56,157 bases of DNA. Source: an uncultured Verrucomicrobiota bacterium (GTDB lineage: Bacteria; Verrucomicrobiota; Verrucomicrobiia; Limisphaerales; UBA9464). Positions 7,140 to 50,772 of this stretch are shown here, piece by piece; the first letter of the stretch is position 1, and the number at the start of each line of letters is the position of its first letter. The stretch lies in the NCBI GenBank assembly GCA_903842505.1, contig CAIMMI010000146.1, positions 1 to 56,157 of the forward strand, read 5' to 3'. Position numbers and translations under genes: made by a program. A model generated the notes under the pieces. The model had not been told where the DNA came from and made no database searches. It saw only the letters and a program-made list of their open reading frames with translations.

Positions 7140-8111
7140 TCACTCCTCTGCCAGCAGGCACGCGACCCTTCGTCCATCGAGCATCGGTCGCAGTTCCGGG
7201 ACTTCGGTGCGGCATCGCGCCTGCGCCATCGGACAGCGGGGATGGAACGGACACCCTGCGGGTGGATTCAGCGGCGATGGAACATCCCCGGCCAGCCGCA
7301 CGCGCGCTTCGCGGGAAGCGCCGGGATCCGGACTCGGAACAGCGGACAGGAGCGCCCGGGTGTAGGGATGGACTGGCGAGCGGCACACCTGGGCCGAGGT
7401 CCCTTCCTCGACGATCCTCCCGAGGTACATCACGACGATGCGGTGGCTGAGGTGTTCGACCACCGCGAGATCATGCGCGATGAAGAGGTAGGCCAACCCC
7501 ATCTCCTTCTGCAGCGACGCGAGGAGGTTCACCACCTGGGCCTGCACCGACACGTCCAACGCGCTGACCACCTCGTCACAGACAATCAGGTGCGGCTCCA
7601 CGGCCAGCGCCCGGGCGATTCCGATCCGTTGCCGCTGGCCTCCGCTGAACTCATGCGGATACCGGTCCGCGGCGGCGGGATCGAGCCCGACCTGCGCGAG
7701 CAATTGCGTCACGCGACGGCGCCTTGAATCCCGATCGCCGCCCAAGCCATGGAGCAACATGGGTTCCTCGACGATCTCGCGGATCGTCCACCGCGGGTCG
7801 AGCGATCCATAGGGATCCTGGAAGATCATCTGCAGGCCGCGTCGGGCCGCCCGGAGTTCCGCGGCATCCAGCGAGGCGAGGTCATGCCCTTCGAACCGGA
7901 TGCTTCCCGCGGTCAGCGATTCCAACCGGACGATCGCGCGTCCGAGGGTGCTCTTGCCGCAACCGCTTTCGCCCACCAATCCCACGGTCTCGCCGGATCG
8001 CACGGTGAGACTCACTCCATCGACGGCGCGCACGACGGCGGTGGGACGGCCACGCCAATCGAGTTGGACGGGAAAATGGACCTTCAGATCCTGCACCTCG
8101 AGGAGGTTCAT
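7140..8111 (-). CDS. Oligopeptide/dipeptide-type ABC transporter ATPase (OppF/DppF-like)
   Basis: A 323-residue ATP-hydrolysing subunit of a peptide/nickel-type importer. Walker [10 protein letters not shown] (near residue 50), signature [15 protein letters not shown], Walker [13 protein letters not shown] and the family C-terminal Cys-rich tail ([14 protein letters not shown]) are visible. The start at 8111 overlaps the upstream ATPase stop by four bases (ATGA), which fixes MNLLEVQDL as the N-terminus and indicates translational coupling. The partner ATPase lies immediately upstream. No permease or solute-binding protein genes are nearby, so the membrane part must be elsewhere. Substrate unknown. 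Confidence 0.9.
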
Positions 8112-9085
8112 GCCGATGCTCCTTCCCCGGCGAACGGACAACGCGCCCGCCTCAGCGCGGTCAGATCCCGCAGTTGGGGAACATCCCGCGCGCAGGCATC
8201 GACCGCCTCCGCACAGCGCGGGTGAAACCGGCATCCGGGCGGCCATTGGCCGGCGGGGGGAACCATTCCGGGAATCGTGTTCAACGGCCCGGCGACGCCG
8301 CCCAAGCGCGGCACCGAAGCCAGCAGGGCCTGGGTGTAGGGATGCGCCGGGCGTCGCAGGACATCCGTCACGGGACCGCTCTCGACGACCTGACCGGCGT
8401 AGAGCACCGACACCTCGTCGGCCAGGTCCGCCACGAGACCGAGGTTGTGCGTGATGAGGAGGATCGCCATCCCGAGTTCGGCGCGAAGTTCCCGGAGCAG
8501 GTCCAGGATCTGGGCCTGGATGGTGACGTCGAGCGCCGTGGTGGGTTCGTCGGCCACCAACAGCCGCGGACGCGGTGCCAGCGCCATCGCGATCATGACG
8601 CGTTGCTGCATGCCGCCCGAAAGCTCGTGGGGATATTGCCGCGCGCGGACCTCAGGAGACGGAATTCCCACTCGCGCCAACCAGCGCACCACCTCGGCCT
8701 GCGTGGCCTCATCGGGTCGGTGCAGGCGGAGCGACTCCAGGATCTGGTCGCCCACGCGCAGGACGGGATTCAGGGCTGAAGCGGGCTCCTGAAAAATGTA
8801 GCTCACCACCGACCCGCGGATCCCCTGCAGACCCCGATGGTCGAGCGCGAACACGTCCTTCCCGTCGACCCGCACCGTTCCGCCCACGCGATGCGCGAGT
8901 GAATCCGGCAGAAGGCGGGTCAACGTCAGCGCTGTGATCGACTTGCCGCTGCCGCTTTCTCCGACCAGCGCCTGGACCCGGCCCGGTTCCAGGCGGAGGT
9001 CCACCCCATCGAGCACGCGGATGCGGGCCGACTCCACGGCCAGTTCCAGTTGCAGGTGGTCGATCTCGACGAGTGGCATGGGCAT
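8108..9085 (-). CDS. Oligopeptide/dipeptide-type ABC transporter ATPase (OppD/DppD-like)
   Basis: A 325-residue ABC ATPase paired with the OppF-like protein. It has Walker [11 protein letters not shown], signature [15 protein letters not shown], Walker [13 protein letters not shown] and the C-terminal oligopeptide-transporter extension ([14 protein letters not shown]). The ATG at 9085 shares its A with the stop codon of the upstream M28 peptidase gene. A TTG at 9088 and an ATG at 9079 are alternatives. Together with the downstream 4-base overlap, this shows a three-gene coupled transcript (peptidase, OppD-like, OppF-like). Peptide uptake is the usual family role; the coupling to a peptidase fits use of peptides (inference). 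Confidence 0.9.
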
Positions 9086-10779
9086 CAACGGTTGCGCATC
9101 GTGGCTCCGCGGCGGGTCTTCGTGCGAAATTCACTACCCGAGCGCCACTGGGGCCAATCGCGGCCATCGGCCAACCGCCAGCCCACCTCGGCCAGGAATC
9201 GGATGTCCTCCTCGGCGCCCCGCAGGTCCCAGCCAGGTTTCACCTCGTCGGAAACCTTGTGATAGTCGTTCTCGATGTACTCGGTAACCCGCTTCTCGCC
9301 ATAGCCCGCGGGGTGATCGAGGTATTCGTCCCCCGCCTTCAGGTACACCGCGGGAACGCCCAGCTTCATGAATTCAAAATGGTCACTCCGGAAGAACATC
9401 CCCCGCTCCGGATGCGGATCCGGCATCAGGCGGCGTCCGGCATTTCGCGCCACGCTCCGGAGCACATCGTCCAGGGTGGAATGCCCCGCCCCGACCTGCC
9501 GCAGGTCCCGGGTACGACCCCAGGTGTTGAGACCGTCCATGTTCAGGTTGGCGACCGCCGAGGCGAGATTGAAGGGCGGGTTGCGGGCAAAGTAGCGCGC
9601 ACCCAGCAACCCCTGCTCCTCGGCGGTGGGTGCGAAGAAGACCACCGAACGTTTCGGAGCCTTTGGTACCGCACCGAACGACCGGGCCAGTTCCAGCAGG
9701 CCCGCCACGCCCACTGCATTGTCTGCCGCGCCGTTGAAGATCGGGTCGCCCTCCCGCTTGGCATCGCGCCCGAGGTGATCCCAATGCGCCGAGTAGACGA
9801 CGTACTGGTTCCGCAGTACCGGATCGGATCCTGGCAGGACCCCGACGACATTCCGGGACTGGACCCGCCGGATCGACTGGGAGACGGAAGCCTCGAAGCG
9901 CTGCTGGAGGATCACCGGACGGAAGGTCCGCTGGACCGCCAGAGCCAGCGCGGACTCATAGGTCATCCCGTTCAAGGCCAGCAATTCCTTCGCAGCCTCC
10001 TGGCTGAGCCAGCCTGCCAGCGGCGTCTTCGGATCCGCGTCCGCCGCCAGTTCGAATCGTTCCCGTCCCCAGGAGTTGACCACGACAAACCACGGGTAAG
10101 CCGCCGCCCGCGTCTCATGGATGAGCAATGCCGCCGCTGCACCGCGCCGCGCCGCCTCCTCGTACTTGTAGGTCCAGCGCCCGTAATAGGTCATGGCGTT
10201 CCCCTGGAAGGTGCGCGGATCCAGGCCTCCCGGTGACTTGGCATCGGGCACGGGCGGATCGTTGACCAGGATCACCACCGTCTTCCCGCGGACATCCACG
10301 TCCTTGTAGTCGTCCCAGCGGTACTCCGGAGCCGTAACCCCGTATCCGACGAAGACCATCTCACCCGAAGGGATCGCGACGCGGGAATCCGTGACGGGCG
10401 ACCACGCGACCAGATCCTGGGGGAACACGAGAGGACGACGTCCGGCGGGTCCGGACCAGGCCGCGCCGACGGTGGAAGTGATCCCGACGATCGGCACCTC
10501 CTGGACCCAACTGTCGCCGGGCATACCGGGCTTCAATCCGCTCCGGGCGAACCCGGCTTCGAGGTACCGGACCGTTTTCTCTTCGCCGGCGGAACCGGGA
10601 CCGCGTCCCTCGAACTCATCCGATGCGAGCGTCCGGGTGTGTTCCAGGATCCGACTGCCGTCGACACACCGACAAACCGGACGGGACAAGGGGGTGCTCG
10701 ACTCGCCCGGGAGAGCCGTGGACATCCCAAGCCACAGCAGCGCCCCTGAAACCCAGACTGGAGGAAAGAGGTGCCTCAT
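9085..10779 (-). CDS. Secreted M28-family metallopeptidase
   Basis: A 564-residue protein with an N-terminal signal peptide (MRHLFPPVWVSGALLWLGM..). A PA-type insert (GKTVVILVNDPP) is followed by the M28 di-zinc core. Visible ligands are SAHWDHLG (His/Asp), GAADNAVGVAGLLELA (Asp), PTAEEQGLLGA (Glu-Glu), NLNMDGLN (Asp) and the final SDHFEF (His). M28 enzymes are mostly aminopeptidases or glutamate carboxypeptidase-like. It probably acts in periplasm or outside the cell. The start at 10779 places the signal peptide first; 22 further in-frame residues upstream are discarded. The stop overlaps the start of an ABC ATPase gene by one base, linking peptide hydrolysis to putative peptide import. Confidence 0.88.
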   Translation of the reverse strand: MRHLFPPVWVSGALLWLGMSTALPGESSTPLSRPVCRCVDGSRILEHTRTLASDEFEGRGPGSAGEEKTVRYLEAGFARSGLKPGMPGDSWVQEVPIVGITSTVGAAWSGPAGRRPLVFPQDLVAWSPVTDSRVAIPSGEMVFVGYGVTAPEYRWDDYKDVDVRGKTVVILVNDPPVPDAKSPGGLDPRTFQGNAMTYYGRWTYKYEEAARRGAAAALLIHETRAAAYPWFVVVNSWGRERFELAADADPKTPLAGWLSQEAAKELLALNGMTYESALALAVQRTFRPVILQQRFEASVSQSIRRVQSRNVVGVLPGSDPVLRNQYVVYSAHWDHLGRDAKREGDPIFNGAADNAVGVAGLLELARSFGAVPKAPKRSVVFFAPTAEEQGLLGARYFARNPPFNLASAVANLNMDGLNTWGRTRDLRQVGAGHSTLDDVLRSVARNAGRRLMPDPHPERGMFFRSDHFEFMKLGVPAVYLKAGDEYLDHPAGYGEKRVTEYIENDYHKVSDEVKPGWDLRGAEEDIRFLAEVGWRLADGRDWPQWRSGSEFRTKTRRGATMRNR

Positions 10780-42326: not shown

Positions 42327-42547
42327 AGGCCACGCGCATCCCGGAGGGACGCAAGCCGATCGCAAAGAACTGTCCTCTGTCCTCTGCCCTCTGGCTTCTG
42401 GCATCTGGCTTCTGGCATCTGGGTACTGGGAACTGTCCTCTGGCATCTGGGTACTGGGAACTATCCTCTGGCAACTACCTGCCGACAACGCCCCCCTCCC
42501 CTCGGCCCGACTCTTGACCCTGCACCGCGTCCGGTAACACTGCCTCA
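42327..42547. other. Spacer between thiD and the ThuA gene with a 28-bp tandem repeat
   Basis: Contains shorter 'tctggcttctggcatc' steps followed by two near-perfect 28-bp units (42411-42438 and 42439-42466, one difference). No gene or clear terminator. Confidence 0.5.
42411..42466 (+). repeat. 28-bp tandem repeat (two units)
   Basis: Units share 'tctggcatctgggtactggg' and differ at one base near the 3' end. A third partial unit follows. The words resemble those in the other 'ggaaactgg' intergenic elements. Confidence 0.65.
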
Positions 42548-43495: not shown

Positions 43496-44818
43496 ATGAA
43501 GACGCCGATCACCCCGGACGAACCCGCCTCCCTCACCGCCTGGCGCCCCCATCTCTTCGCCTGGGCCCTGTCCTGCGTGCTCCTCGTCTTCCCCTTCCGC
43601 CGTGGCCAGGCCGAGAACCGCGCCGAATACCGGTACGAGGATTACCGCGAGGACGACGACCGGATGCAGGTCCAGACCCACAGCGTCTGGTTCGAATACG
43701 AACTCCACCAGAAGGTCACCGCCCGCGGGTCCTACGTGAACGACGCCCTCTCCGGTGCCACCCCCACCGGTGGACCCGGCCTGCCCGGCGAAAAGTACGA
43801 GTCCGTCCGCATCCAGGATGAACGCAATGCTGGCTTCCTCGAAACCGCCATCCGCGCCGGTCGCACCACCACCACTCCCCAGATCTCCTACAGCGAAGAG
43901 AGTGACTACCGCTCCCTCGGCATCTCCCTCACCGAGGCCATCGACTTCAACCAGCGCAACACAACCCTCATCCTCGGCGTCGCCCGCGCCAACGACGAGG
44001 TCAGCCGCCGCGGTTGGGATTACTACCTCTACAAGGGCAACTGGGACTTCCTGGTCGGGATCAATCAGGTCCTCGATCCCCGCACCGTCGTCACCTTCAA
44101 CCTGACCTTCGGCTACGCCGACGGTTACCTCACCGATCCCTACAAGGGCATCAACATCTCGCTGGACCTCCCGCCGTACGGCCCATACGACCCAGAAGAC
44201 AACACGGACTTCGATACCCGACCCGACGTCACCAACGACCGCGAACGCCGCCCCAGCCACCGCTTCAAGCAGGTCGCCTTTGCCGGCATCACCCACCTCT
44301 TCGCCCCGGTCAACGGCTCCCTCGACGCCAACTACCGCTTCCACCACGACGATTGGGGCATCATCGCCCATACCGTCCAGCTCACCTGGAACCAGAAACT
44401 CTGGAAGCGGCTGACCCTGTCGCCCCTCTTCCGCTACCACCGCCAGGGCGCGGCGGACTTCTACCGTCTGCGCGTCGATTCCGACACCAGCTTCGCCGGT
44501 TCCCGGGTGGCCTTCGGTCTCGACAATTCCTTCGCCGGTGCCGAAGGGGACCCCGGGTTCGACGACGCCCTCGCCGATCCCGCCAACTTCCAGATCATCT
44601 CCGTCCCGTTCGCCCCGGATTACTACTCCGCCGACTACCGTCTCAGCGAACTGCAGACCTTTACCTTCGGGATGACCGCCGCCATCGAACTCCACGAAAA
44701 CATCTCCCTCGTGCTCGGCTACAAACGCTACCTGATGGAGGGACTCGACGGCAGGACCGCCCAGGATGTCTACCCAGACGCCAATATCTTCACCATCGGC
44801 CTGAACGGACGGTTCTGA
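43496..44818 (+). CDS. DUF3570 outer-membrane barrel protein with candidate FMN-attachment motif
   Basis: A 440-residue protein with a late-cleaving N-terminal signal (hydrophobic residues ~18-33). The body is a series of aromatic-rich amphipathic strands (TVVTFNLTFGYADGYL, ANYRFHHDDWGIIAHTVQLTWNQKLW, LSPLFRYHRQG, TFTFGMTAAIELHENISLVLGYKRYL) ending in a C-terminal Phe, as outer-membrane barrels do. This fits DUF3570. At residues 83-89 is DALSGAT (43742-43762), the Dxx(S/T)GAT motif that ApbE uses for covalent FMN attachment to Thr. The next gene is apbE. It is probably a surface flavoprotein in electron transfer (inference). Confidence 0.85.
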   Translation: MKTPITPDEPASLTAWRPHLFAWALSCVLLVFPFRRGQAENRAEYRYEDYREDDDRMQVQTHSVWFEYELHQKVTARGSYVNDALSGATPTGGPGLPGEKYESVRIQDERNAGFLETAIRAGRTTTTPQISYSEESDYRSLGISLTEAIDFNQRNTTLILGVARANDEVSRRGWDYYLYKGNWDFLVGINQVLDPRTVVTFNLTFGYADGYLTDPYKGINISLDLPPYGPYDPEDNTDFDTRPDVTNDRERRPSHRFKQVAFAGITHLFAPVNGSLDANYRFHHDDWGIIAHTVQLTWNQKLWKRLTLSPLFRYHRQGAADFYRLRVDSDTSFAGSRVAFGLDNSFAGAEGDPGFDDALADPANFQIISVPFAPDYYSADYRLSELQTFTFGMTAAIELHENISLVLGYKRYLMEGLDGRTAQDVYPDANIFTIGLNGRF

Positions 44819-44832
44819 CCCTCCCCCTCCCT

Positions 44833-45864
44833 GTGCCCGCTTCCGTCGAACCATCCCACCCTTCCGCGACCGGCGCCCCGCTGCGCCCGCCGCCGGTCGC
44901 GGATGTCCTCGCGCGGATCCGCGGCAACGCGCGGCTCGAAACCGCCCATGGTTCCTCCGAACTGACGTTCCAGGCCATGGGCACCCGCTGCCGGGTGTCC
45001 TTCGCCGGGCCCCAACCCTCCCGCACCGCCGACCACGTCCTCGCGTGGGTCGCCACCTTCGAGGCCCGCTACAGCCGTTTTCTACCCGATAGCTGGGTCT
45101 CCCAGATCAACGAGCGCGCCGGCGGTGATTGGATCGAACTCGATCCCGAAGCCCACCAACTCCTCGGTCTCTGCTCCCAACTGGTCTTCCTGACCCGCGG
45201 CATCCTCGACCCCTCGTCCCTTCCGCTGATCCGGCTCTGGGATTGGAAGCAGGCCCGCGTGCCCTCCGATCCCGAAATCGAGGCCGCCCGCACCCTCACC
45301 GGCTGGAAGCAGGTCCAACTCGCCCCGGGCCGCATCCGACTCCCCCGCGCCGGCATGGCCATCGACCTCGGCGGTGTTGGCAAGGAGTTCGCCGTCGATC
45401 AGGTGATCCTCCTCCTCGCCAGCCTCGGCGTCCGCTCCGCCCTCGTGGACTTCGGCGCCGATATCCGCGTCCTCGGCCTGCCCCACGACGGCCGGCCCGC
45501 CTGGAAAATCGGACTCGAAGACCCGCGAAACCCAGGCCTCGCCTGGACCCACCTCGTCGTCCGCGAAGGGGCCGTCGCCACCTCCGGCGACTACATCCGC
45601 GGCTTCACCTCCGGTTCCCGACGCTTTGGCCACATCCTCGACCCCCGCACCGGGCGACCGGTCGACAACCGCGTCCTCGCAGCCAGCGTCCTCGCACCTT
45701 CCTGCACTCAGGCCGGCATGCTGAGCACCGCGCTCTGCGTGATGGGACCTGAGGAAGGCCGGCGTCTCCTCGCCAGCTCACCCGGCGTCGAGGGCTGCAT
45801 TTTCTCCACCGATGGCATTGTCACTTCCCCGAGATTCTATGAACACGTCACGCAGGCAGTTTAA
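44833..45864 (+). CDS. apbE: FAD:protein FMN transferase (ApbE)
   Basis: A 343-residue flavin transferase that cleaves FAD and links FMN to Thr in target proteins. Motifs are [66 protein letters not shown] and the [15 protein letters not shown] metal/flavin loop. The most upstream usable start after the DUF3570 stop is GTG at 44833, 14 bases on. From there no signal peptide or lipobox appears, which is odd because ApbE normally works outside the cytoplasm. Its end overlaps the thioredoxin gene by 26 bases, so translation is coupled. Confidence 0.9.
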
Positions 45865-46348
45865 CCGCTGGATCACCGTCACCCTGGCCGCCGTCTGGAC
45901 CGGGCTCATCGCCCTCGCCGGCACCCCGAAGGCCGGCGAGGCTTTCCCGGACCTCGCCAAGGCCAACCTCGAAGGCAAGCTCCCCGACCTGGCCGGGAAA
46001 ATTGTCGTGGTCGATTTCTGGGCTTCCTGGTGCAGCCCCTGCAAGAAGGCCCTCCCCGTCCTCGCCGAACTCAGCAAGGAGTACGGCCCCAAGGGCGTTG
46101 TCTTCGTCGCCGTCAGCCTCGATGAGGACAAGGCCGACATGGATGCCTTCCTGAAGAAGAATCCCCTCCCCTTCGCCGTCGTACGCGATCCCAAGGGCAA
46201 GCTCGCTGAATCCCTGAACATCCAGGGCATTCCCGTCTCCTTCGTCATCGCTCCGGACGGCAAGGTCGCCGCCGCCCACAATGGCTTCGAAGGGGACAAG
46301 ACCCGCGCCAAGTACGTCACCCAGCTCGATCAATTGCTCAAGAAGTGA
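45839..46348 (+). CDS. TlpA-family exported thioredoxin-like protein
   Basis: A 169-residue membrane-anchored or exported thiol-disulfide oxidoreductase. The N-terminal [22 protein letters not shown] starts with an RR pair and hydrophobic segment. The thioredoxin fold has the active site WCSPC (Cys65, Cys68) in [15 protein letters not shown], and cis-Pro in [10 protein letters not shown]. Start at 45839 keeps the signal segment whole. It overlaps apbE by 26 bases and is followed by the DUF4266 gene. The partner may be the Cys-rich end of DUF4266 or a heme/flavin protein in this cluster (inference). Confidence 0.9.
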
Positions 46349-46387
46349 GCCTTCCCTGGCCGCCAATCCCAACCACGCCTCCGACCC

Positions 46388-46618
46388 ATGAAACACTGCC
46401 ATCGCCACCGCCTGGCCCTCCTCGCCATCGCCGCTCTCTCCCTGCTCTCCACCGGGTGTCAGACGGTCAAGCCGTGGCAACGCGGCAGCCTCAGTGACCC
46501 CATCATGCGGCCCGATCGCGACCCGATCGGACTCGCGCTCTCCGAACACGTCTGGTTCTCCCGCGAAGCCGCAGCGGGCGGCCGGGGCGTTGGCGGCGGT
46601 GGATGCGGCTGCAATTGA
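46388..46618 (+). CDS. DUF4266 small lipoprotein
   Basis: A 76-residue lipoprotein: signal peptide and lipobox STGC (Cys24), then the very conserved DUF4266 body VKPWQRGSLSDPIMRPDRDPIG, ALSEHVWFSREAAAGG and the Gly/Cys-rich end GVGGGGCGCN. The two C-terminal Cys (C-G-C) could form a disulfide or bind metal or flavin. It stands between the TlpA gene and the Ig-like gene. DUF4266 is typically found with DUF3570, ApbE and thioredoxin genes. Its role is unknown; it may anchor or couple redox to the barrel. Confidence 0.9.
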   Translation: MKHCHRHRLALLAIAALSLLSTGCQTVKPWQRGSLSDPIMRPDRDPIGLALSEHVWFSREAAAGGRGVGGGGCGCN

Positions 46619-46647
46619 TTTCTGAAACTGACCCTGACGATAAGCCT

Positions 46648-47883
46648 ATGAGTAACCGATCCGATTCGTCCTCTACCTTGTCTCCCAACCCCAGCATCGC
46701 CCGTGGCATCCGCCCGGTCGGCTCTTTGCTGGTGGCCTTGTTCCTCCAGTTCGCTCCGCTGCTCCGGACCATCGAGCCCGCCATGGCCGGTGTCCTGCAA
46801 CCGGTGTTCATGCTGCTCCGCTGGGCCGCCGCCGCCTCGGCCGTCGCCGGAGGTGCCCACGCACTCTCCGGCGCCACCGGCCTTACCACCCCCAATACGG
46901 TTCGCGCCACCAACGGCGTCGCCACCAGCTACCGAGCCGGCATCACCAGCGATACCCACGGTGCGGCCAGGTCTTACTCCGCCACCGCCCTCGCTCCCGG
47001 CCTGACCGTTACCAGCCGGACCGGCGGCATCCTGAGCGGCACTCCCACCACGACGGGCTCTTACAGCACCCGTGTCACCGGATGGGAGAACAACAACGCC
47101 ACGGGCAACAGCTTCACCGTCACCGTCACCTTCACCGTCGTCGACCAGGCCATCAGCATCACCGGCCAACCCCAGCCCGCCACCATCGATCAGGGCAAAC
47201 CGGTCACTTTCTCGGTCAACGCCACCGGCACAACCCTCTCCTACCGATGGCTCCACAATGACCTCGAAATCGCCGGCGCCACCAACTCGACCTTCAGCAT
47301 CGCCTCCGTGAAGGGCACCGATGCCGGCAACTACCAGGTCCGCATCTCCAACGGCACCGGCTCCACCCTGAGCACCAAGGCGCTCCTCACCATCAACGTT
47401 CCCGCGCAACCGCCGACCTTCACCTCGATCTCGCCCAGCTTCTCCGTCCACGAAGGCGACAACGCCTCGATCTCCGCCGTCGCCACCGCCACCGGCGCCG
47501 CGCCCAGCCTCACCTGGTCCTTCAACGGAAATCCGGTCGTCGGCGTGACCGGCTCTCCCCTCGCCCTCTCCAGGGTCTCCCCGGCCCAGGGCGGCACCTA
47601 TCGCGCCATCGCCACCGCGAACGGCCTCTCGACCACCTCCGCACCCGTGGTCCTCACCGTCCTGTCGCCCCTCCAGATCCTGACGTCCTCCGCCGACGAC
47701 TCCCGGTTCGCCCTCACCGTCGGCACCATCAACGGCCGCCGTTACTTCCTCGAAACCGCGTCCGATCCGACCGCCACCTCGTGGCTGCCCGTGACCAGCG
47801 CCGTCGCCACCGGCTCCACCCTCGAACTCACCGACCCGGACCGCGCCCCCGTGGTCAAGACCTACCGCGTCCGCGCGGAATAG
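46648..47883 (+). CDS. Exported Ig-like domain protein with an SGAT motif
   Basis: A 411-residue protein. A hydrophobic N-terminal region (residues ~21-70, one or two membrane segments) ends at AGGAHA, directly followed by LSGATGLTTPN (residues 71-77 are HALSGAT, 46858-46878). Then come cadherin/putative-Ig-like repeats (SYSATALAPGLTVTSRTGGILSGTPTTTGSY; IDQGKPVTFSVNATGTTLSYRW; DAGNYQVRISN) and a C-terminal module ending KTYRVRAE. It is the fifth gene of the DUF3570-ApbE run, starting 29 bases after DUF4266. The motif lacks the Asp usually found at position -6 but otherwise matches an ApbE target site. The start at 46648 is an ATG; 15 upstream in-frame residues are discarded. Confidence 0.8.
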   Translation: MSNRSDSSSTLSPNPSIARGIRPVGSLLVALFLQFAPLLRTIEPAMAGVLQPVFMLLRWAAAASAVAGGAHALSGATGLTTPNTVRATNGVATSYRAGITSDTHGAARSYSATALAPGLTVTSRTGGILSGTPTTTGSYSTRVTGWENNNATGNSFTVTVTFTVVDQAISITGQPQPATIDQGKPVTFSVNATGTTLSYRWLHNDLEIAGATNSTFSIASVKGTDAGNYQVRISNGTGSTLSTKALLTINVPAQPPTFTSISPSFSVHEGDNASISAVATATGAAPSLTWSFNGNPVVGVTGSPLALSRVSPAQGGTYRAIATANGLSTTSAPVVLTVLSPLQILTSSADDSRFALTVGTINGRRYFLETASDPTATSWLPVTSAVATGSTLELTDPDRAPVVKTYRVRAE

Positions 47884-47896
47884 GCCTCCATCCGGA

Positions 47897-47972
47897 CGGG
47901 GTGGGGCGAGACTCTGTCGAGCCGCTCCACCCCCTTCGCGCCCACCGGTGGGGCGAGACTCCGTCGAGCCGC
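47897..47972 (+). repeat. Dispersed repeat R1 variant (two cores)
   Basis: Two cores of the form 'ggtggggcgagactccgtcgag' 45 bases apart replace the 'gtgtcctcac' version. This variant is what closes the copies at 10877 and 15471. Confidence 0.65.
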
Positions 47973-47983
47973 TCTGCGCCCTC

Positions 47984-48080
47984 CCCTCGTACCCGTACTC
48001 AGCCCGAAGGGCGGTACTCGTACTCGACCACACCACACCAACCCTCCCTCCCCCCCATCGGACCGAGTACGAGTACCCTC
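47984..48080. repeat. Inverted 'ctcgtactc' element, copy 3
   Basis: Left arm 'gtacccgtactcagcccgaagggcggtactcgtactcg' and right arm 'cgagtacgagtac' flank a C-rich spacer. It is the same element as at 287 and 830, far from the others, confirming it is dispersed. Confidence 0.65.
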
Positions 48081-50455: not shown

Positions 50456-50658
50456 CTAGTGCCCGCAACGCTACGTACCTCTCCTTCCCCCTGCAACACG
50501 CCCGACACCCGCACGGCAACCTGCACGGCACGCCCCCAAAAACGAAAACTGGCGCATCCCCGGAAGCAGGAATGCCCCCAGCCCACACCGTCCCAACCCC
50601 ACCCCCGGCAAAGCAGGTAGCCCAGGTAGCGCATGCGAACGGGCGAACGGACCCTGTC

Positions 50659-50700
50659 GATTTACAATCCCGTGTCCCATATGCGACATGCGGATGTAAT
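50659..50700. repeat. 42-bp direct repeat, copy 1
   Basis: Contains 'gatttacaatcccgtgtccc' and 'atatgcgacatgcggatg'. It matches copy 2 at 40 of 42 positions, with a period of 72 bp. The 'tgtcccatatgcgaca' centre is near-palindromic. Confidence 0.75.
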
Positions 50701-50730
50701 TCCGCCGGGAGCAGTCCATCCCAGACCCAC

Positions 50731-50772
50731 GATTTACAATCCCATGTCCCATATGCGACATGCGGATGCAAT
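50731..50772. repeat. 42-bp direct repeat, copy 2
   Basis: Two substitutions relative to copy 1 (cccg to ccca; gtaat to gcaat). Confidence 0.75.

Follow-up and report, generated by a model that had tools for sequence, protein, structure and literature searches.

Clusters in which a DUF3570 gene accompanies genes for ApbE, a thioredoxin-like protein and DUF4266, with or without DsbD, were described by Meheust et al. (2021; PMC8238504). The accessible part of that report lists 316 clusters without DsbD and proves flavinylation of the DUF3570 protein of Chlorobium luteolum, which carries two serine motifs. In the literature searched, DUF3570 or DUF4266 was named in PMC8238504 only, and no DUF3570 model was seen in the accessible part of the 2024 follow-up. 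The present study concerns a 56,157-nucleotide stretch (the window; assembly GCA_903842505.1, contig CAIMMI010000146.1) of an uncultured Verrucomicrobiota bacterium, in which positions 43496–47883 harbor five open reading frames (ORFs), all on the same strand, for a DUF3570 barrel, ApbE, a thioredoxin, a DUF4266 lipoprotein, and an immunoglobulin-like (Ig) protein. The balance of evidence leans slightly toward the five genes forming one envelope redox system, a thiol-fed surface flavin conduit whose flavin mononucleotide (FMN) would be loaded before export by a variant ApbE. The four-gene core and covalent flavin on a DUF3570 protein are not new, and neither is the central idea, because both DUF3570 flavinylation and the four-gene cluster were already reported in PMC8238504. 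The membership of the Ig protein, the distinct ApbE clade and the barrel placement of the flavinylation Thr were not found in the literature searched. The features of the locus are as follows.

43496..44818, + strand: DUF3570 outer-membrane beta-barrel, 440 amino acids (aa), signal peptide (PF12094, E-value 2.6e-61; AlphaFold2 16-strand barrel, predicted local distance difference test [pLDDT] 90)
43742..43762, + strand: DUF3570 flavinylation motif D83-A-L-S-G-A-T89, at the modeled extracellular end of strand 3 (motif in relatives, barrel model)
44833..45864, + strand: type-I ApbE-family protein, 343 aa, GTG start, no signal peptide (PF02424, 2.1e-71; no N-terminal hydrophobic segment)
45385..45387, + strand: ApbE Glu185 codon, after active-site Lys184 (Gly in canonical ApbE)
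45715..45717, + strand: ApbE Gly295 codon, at the position of the catalytic Asp that ligates Mg (FmnB Asp301; alignment with solved ApbEs)
45839..46348, + strand: TlpA/ResA-like secreted thioredoxin, WCSPC (PF13905/PF08534, Thioredoxin_8/Redoxin, about 1e-22; ResA the best NCBIfam match)
46388..46618, + strand: DUF4266 lipoprotein, 76 aa, lipobox LSTGC, C-terminal CGCN (PF14086, 1.4e-21; tail conserved in relatives)
46648..47883, + strand: Ig-domain protein, 411 aa, ATG at 46648 (Ig_3, 1.2e-16; structure model)
46711..46878, + strand: Ig-protein N-terminal module comprising helices 24-41 and 51-69 followed by H71-A-L-S-G-A-T77 (alignments, profile, model)

The cluster and its conservation

The cluster, noticed in a first-pass annotation made from the sequence alone, was confirmed. 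The ORF coordinates reproduced its tightly spaced same-strand genes and the 26-bp apbE/tlpA overlap (thioredoxin ATG at 45839, ApbE end at 45864), with gaps of 14 bp between DUF3570 and ApbE, 39 bp between thioredoxin and DUF4266, and 29 bp between DUF4266 and Ig. A Pfam search of the five proteins agreed with its family calls (DUF3570, ApbE, TlpA, DUF4266, and Ig), and its impression that all products except ApbE are apparently exported also held, as a signal peptide, lipobox or hydrophobic segment was found at the N-terminus of every cluster protein but ApbE. The interpretation offered there stood in its families, gene order and redox context, but overlooked the Asp loss and Glu gain in ApbE, the single DUF3570 site and the motif in the Ig protein.

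As far as the accessible text of PMC8238504 goes, the window shares with the DUF3570/DsbD system four of its five genes, the CxC tail of DUF4266 and the DUF3570 flavinylation motif. It differs in having no adjacent DsbD, one DUF3570 motif instead of two, an extra Ig protein, and a variant ApbE without signal peptide, on which that text does not remark. Porin-cytochrome conduits (MtrCAB and Cyc2) are comparable in placing a redox cofactor within or beside an outer-membrane barrel so that electrons can pass; however, the cofactor here would be flavin rather than heme, and the two show no sequence relationship. The thioredoxin, a secreted thioredoxin fold with a CxxC site in the form WCxPC, resembles the periplasmic thiol-disulfide oxidoreductases TlpA/ResA, but scores below the NCBIfam ResA cut-off.

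The 5.2-Mb draft genome (window on contig C146) contains one DUF3570 gene and one DUF4266 gene, and the named relatives nearest to the window are Verrucomicrobiota metagenome-assembled genomes, some labeled Pedosphaera. No DsbD lies beside the window genes, while one DsbD_TM gene is present on another contig of the same genome. No FMN_bind protein was found in this genome; it encodes two more ApbEs outside the cluster, both without the type-I pattern.

DUF3570 was present in 42 of 388 sampled genomes of the phylum. The order DUF3570-ApbE-thioredoxin-DUF4266 was near-universal among 40 fetched loci, with the Ig gene next in the window's class, and 80 named loci gave the same picture of the neighborhood; these had been chosen by DUF3570 motif pattern and were excluded from judging the conservation of that motif. 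Among the 87 class clusters with enough flanking sequence to see the Ig module, 51 had it ≤600 bp downstream of DUF4266, and 71 had it ≤8 kb away on the same strand. Such recurrence of gene order is far beyond chance, and the first-pass annotation, which had staked its reading on a conserved order in relatives, was borne out on this point across Verrucomicrobiota.

The relatives also show additions to the cluster. DsbD is encoded within it in L133-L136, L139, L143, L150, L192 and Vibrio L234, and some relatives from the window's own group have the DsbD gene between DUF4266 and the Ig gene; the Vibrio THAF191d cluster is ordered thioredoxin-DUF4266-DUF3570-ApbE-DsbD. A recurring set comprising an OmpR-type regulator, a histidine kinase, a secreted CarboxypepD_reg-like protein, and a ∼430-aa exported protein without Pfam match adjoins DUF4266 and the Ig gene at seven loci (L038, L060, L169, L171, L181, L191, and L194). 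In several Opitutaceae-like loci, DUF4266 is separated from the Ig gene by genes for two exported proteins, a histidine kinase and a response regulator. The gene immediately preceding the Ig gene at L139 (14636-17128) encodes a protein with nine CxxCH motifs and MtrC/MtrF-like and PKD domains, a candidate extracellular reductase. A scan of viral contigs found no DUF3570. At L065 (reverse strand, 7929-9337), a TAG stop and a change of frame interrupt the DUF3570 gene, next to which ApbE, thioredoxin and DUF4266 are present; this is possibly a pseudogene or an assembly error.

The DUF3570 barrel and the variant ApbE

The AlphaFold2 model of the DUF3570 protein, built with 77 sequences (pLDDT 90.1; predicted template modeling score 0.83), is a 16-strand barrel with helix 18-31 as the signal, i.e., the even-stranded barrel and signal peptide characteristic of outer-membrane beta-barrel proteins. 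The extracellular side was assigned from the loops, since the odd loops are long (2-68 residues) and the even turns short (2-4 residues). T89 is located near the top of strand 3 with its motif on the long-loop side, so that the modeled strand carries the flavinylation Thr at its extracellular end. Conserved strand residues were enriched at the T89 end (28 of 38, where 18 were expected; p 5e-4), with a weaker excess when all residues were counted (p 0.02). Foldseek searches with the model returned general outer-membrane barrels only, at low template modeling scores, MtrB (6r2q_B) among them. The window protein has the single site D83-T89 and not two [S/T]GA[S/T] motifs. DUF3570 proteins of other classes contain Asn in place of Asp (NAISGAT). 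Where the DUF3570 motif varies, Gly is kept and Ala is variable.

The ApbE contains the PF02424 domain and matched 13 ApbE sequences of the PDB. It resembles ApbE/FmnB, the flavin adenine dinucleotide (FAD):protein FMN transferase, in this domain and in the active-site Lys, Ser, His, and second Asp, but has Gly for the Mg-ligating Asp, Glu for the Gly after Lys, no lipoprotein signal and two extra conserved cysteines (Cys53 and Cys291). Thus, of the catalytic Asp-Ser-His and Mg-ligating Asp, Ser and His are kept and Asp is replaced by Gly295. In FmnB, Asp301 is part of the catalytic triad, and Ala mutants of the Mg-ligating Asp are weak or dead (PMC8906456). Most ApbEs are secreted, although cytosolic ones are known (PMC12052999). 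The window ApbE showed neither an export signal nor a lipobox, and a hydrophobic N-terminal window was observed in 9% of cluster ApbEs as against 88-99% of the three partners, the exceptions including type-II loci.

Comparison of 145 ApbEs, including 107 cluster copies and 37 from elsewhere in such genomes, revealed Gly at the position of the Mg-ligating Asp in 104 of the 107 cluster copies, Asp being found in the three type-II copies. The 37 ApbEs from elsewhere were divided between Asp (24) and Gly (13), and 12 of these 13 were close type-I relatives. The residue after the active-site Lys was Glu in all 118 sequences with Gly (type I), and Gly in all 27 others. The equivalents of Asp184, Lys190, Ser257, and His273 were kept, every active-site residue other than the Mg-ligating Asp being present in 117-118 of the 118. 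In the phylogeny, a branch with 100/98 support separated the type-I ApbEs from the others; the Vibrio row and P_L232 were long-branched and their exact place is unsure. The swap is old and conserved, since the ApbE of the Vibrio THAF191d cluster has both changes (D-to-G and G-to-E) and no signal. Judged from this pattern of substitution, the Asp/Glu swap may represent a relocated metal ligand. Where DUF3570 clusters lack an ApbE, a type-I ApbE was present elsewhere in 13 of 13 checked genomes. Cys53 and Cys291 (numbered as in the window protein) are conserved in 96-98% of type-I ApbEs, whereas most canonical ApbEs lack them; through these residues, ApbE could conceivably be thiol-linked to its thioredoxin partner. 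The type-II loci L062, L067, L071, and less surely Hymenobacter L235, encode an ApbE that has both the Asp and a signal peptide; in the three from Verrucomicrobiota, the gene order also differs and the DUF3570 protein has SSAS and SGAS sites.

The Ig protein and its N-terminal module

Across the loci, the Ig proteins range from ∼300 to 2600 aa with a variable number of domains, but have an N-terminal module in common. The module begins with a hydrophobic helix, in which LLQRxP is frequent; a linker leads to a second helix, which contains a conserved Gly, and [HDNQ]xx[SAVT]GA[TS] follows. In the model of the window protein, two N-terminal helices are followed by beta-sandwich (Ig-like) domains, and H71-T77 follows helix 2 in a linker of low model confidence, a place in which a linear motif could be accessible. 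The module profile gave a strong match in 25 of the 388 genomes, all 25 carrying DUF3570 (Fisher test, 1.7e-28); these correspond to 25 of 26 DUF3570 genomes of the window's class and 0 of 346 genomes without DUF3570. In the one class genome with DUF3570 but without the module (G235, locus L048), the Ig protein in the same slot starts with a CxxCH stretch, an identification resting mainly on that motif as the Pfam cytochrome matches are weak and below cut-off. The Ig protein very probably belongs to the system.

The module heptamers were read in a fixed frame; SGAT strings inside Ig domains are common and were left uncounted. Apart from that of L116, every readable module has Thr or Ser as the acceptor, and four module copies on other contigs and one distant partial relative keep the motif. 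Compared with the ApbE motif D-x-x-[S/T]-G-A-[S/T], H71-A-L-S-G-A-T77 matches in spacing and acceptor and has His for Asp. Replacement of this Asp by Ala had minor effects in one tested substrate, whereas the Asp is called essential elsewhere (PMC12052999, PMC10722498). The residue before GA[TS] in the DUF3570 and Ig proteins of one cluster was S/S in 42, A/A in 15, A/S in 1, and S/A in 9 cases, a real covariation, yet one structured by lineage and hence only suggestive. Loss of the motif Gly in the Ig protein had seemed to track absence of a cluster ApbE (5/10 vs 7/73); this was dropped, as the checked genomes carry a type-I ApbE elsewhere and the related loci are not independent. Going by the motif, the Ig protein may itself be flavinylated, which we propose tentatively and at rather less than even chance.

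As for the flanking sequence, a ThuA-family gene (PF06283; 42548-43450) ends 45 bp upstream of DUF3570. ThuA was left out of the cluster since ThuA matches occurred at 2 of 41 loci only; a ThuA-like protein upstream of the cluster at L122 does not make it a general neighbor. Just upstream of the ThuA gene is a degenerate tandem repeat with a 14-nt unit (CTGGCTTCTGGCAT type) in 6 overlapping copies (42363-42476). Just 3' of the Ig gene (47900-48077), two 47-nt units in tandem (81% alike) are accompanied by a perfect 14-nt inverted repeat (GGTACTCGTACTCG), and the operon possibly ends here. Two 43-nt direct repeats, 95% identical and spaced 72 nt, lie further downstream (50658-50700 and 50730-50772).

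Proposed electron route and its significance

From the computed families, gene order, co-occurrence, barrel model, enzyme swap and motif conservation, we infer the following route. DsbD, encoded elsewhere in this genome and in the operon of relatives, would reduce the periplasmic thioredoxin, which in turn would reduce the CxC tail of the DUF4266 lipoprotein. Electrons would then pass from DUF4266 to FMN covalently bound at T89, at the extracellular end of DUF3570 strand 3. The Ig protein would be a surface partner, its linker motif H71-T77 being a candidate second FMN site. The variant ApbE, having no export signal, would load FMN onto its substrates before their export, with the Glu next to the active-site Lys substituting for the lost Mg-ligating Asp.

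Several observations weigh against the proposed conduit. At the position of the Asp in ApbE motifs, the Ig motif mostly shows His or Asn, and it also matches the −3/−1 pattern of signal peptidase. There is nearly an even chance that GA[TS] is a signal-peptidase I site ending an unusually long signal peptide, and that the Ig protein, once exported, acts as a structural or adhesive partner without flavin. The presence of A, S, V, or T at −3, Ala nearly always at −1, and a hydrophobic helix preceded by Lys or Arg agree with such a site, as does the loss of Gly with retention of Ala in some Ig copies (SAAT, SSAS, and SKAS), the opposite of DUF3570. However, signal peptidase requires neither an invariant Thr/Ser at +1 nor a polar residue ([HDNQ]) six residues before the cut, the signal peptides of the neighboring proteins are without such a pattern, and the restriction of the module to DUF3570 genomes would be left unexplained.

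As regards the enzyme, the variant ApbE may be unable to transfer FMN, because Ala at the Mg-ligating Asp greatly reduces or abolishes FmnB activity. The C. luteolum DUF3570/ApbE pair, with two serine sites, may be of type II, in which case the published demonstration of flavinylation would not extend to type-I ApbEs. A type-I ApbE that is an FAD binder or hydrolase or a flavin chaperone, with DUF3570 being flavinylated by a canonical ApbE or left unmodified, would agree with the catalytic Asp gone from every type-I copy, the missing export signal and the canonical ApbEs encoded in the genome. Nevertheless, we consider it unlikely, as the rest of the active site is retained in nearly every type-I ApbE, the Asp loss is paired with a fixed Glu beside the active-site Lys, the DUF3570 motif is retained at the same loci, and genomes with ApbE outside the cluster still hold type I. 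Loading before export would further require transport of FMN-bearing chains through Sec, which is hypothetical in these bacteria, as is the proposed electron direction. The sequence does not give that direction, the DUF4266 CxC tail could bind metal, and the barrel motif faces outward; hence, the thioredoxin and DUF4266 might serve barrel or metal-site assembly or disulfide handling instead of feeding the flavin, which would be reduced from outside (electron import). This seems improbable to us, as DsbD, an electron donor to the periplasm, recurs in the operon.

If the thiol-fed conduit is true, it would be a flavin counterpart of the porin-cytochrome conduits, carrying electrons across the outer membrane, and the role of DUF3570/DUF4266 clusters, open since 2021, would become testable. 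The reciprocal Asp/Glu swap is a marker of an enzyme subclass not distinguished from ordinary ApbE by family models. A bolder and rather doubtful extension is that of a second flavin-transferase class, in which signal-less ApbEs with a relocated metal ligand would load unfolded outer-membrane and surface proteins before export, including a previously unknown family of flavinylated Ig proteins. The Ig proteins would then be a new kind of surface flavoprotein in Verrucomicrobiota.

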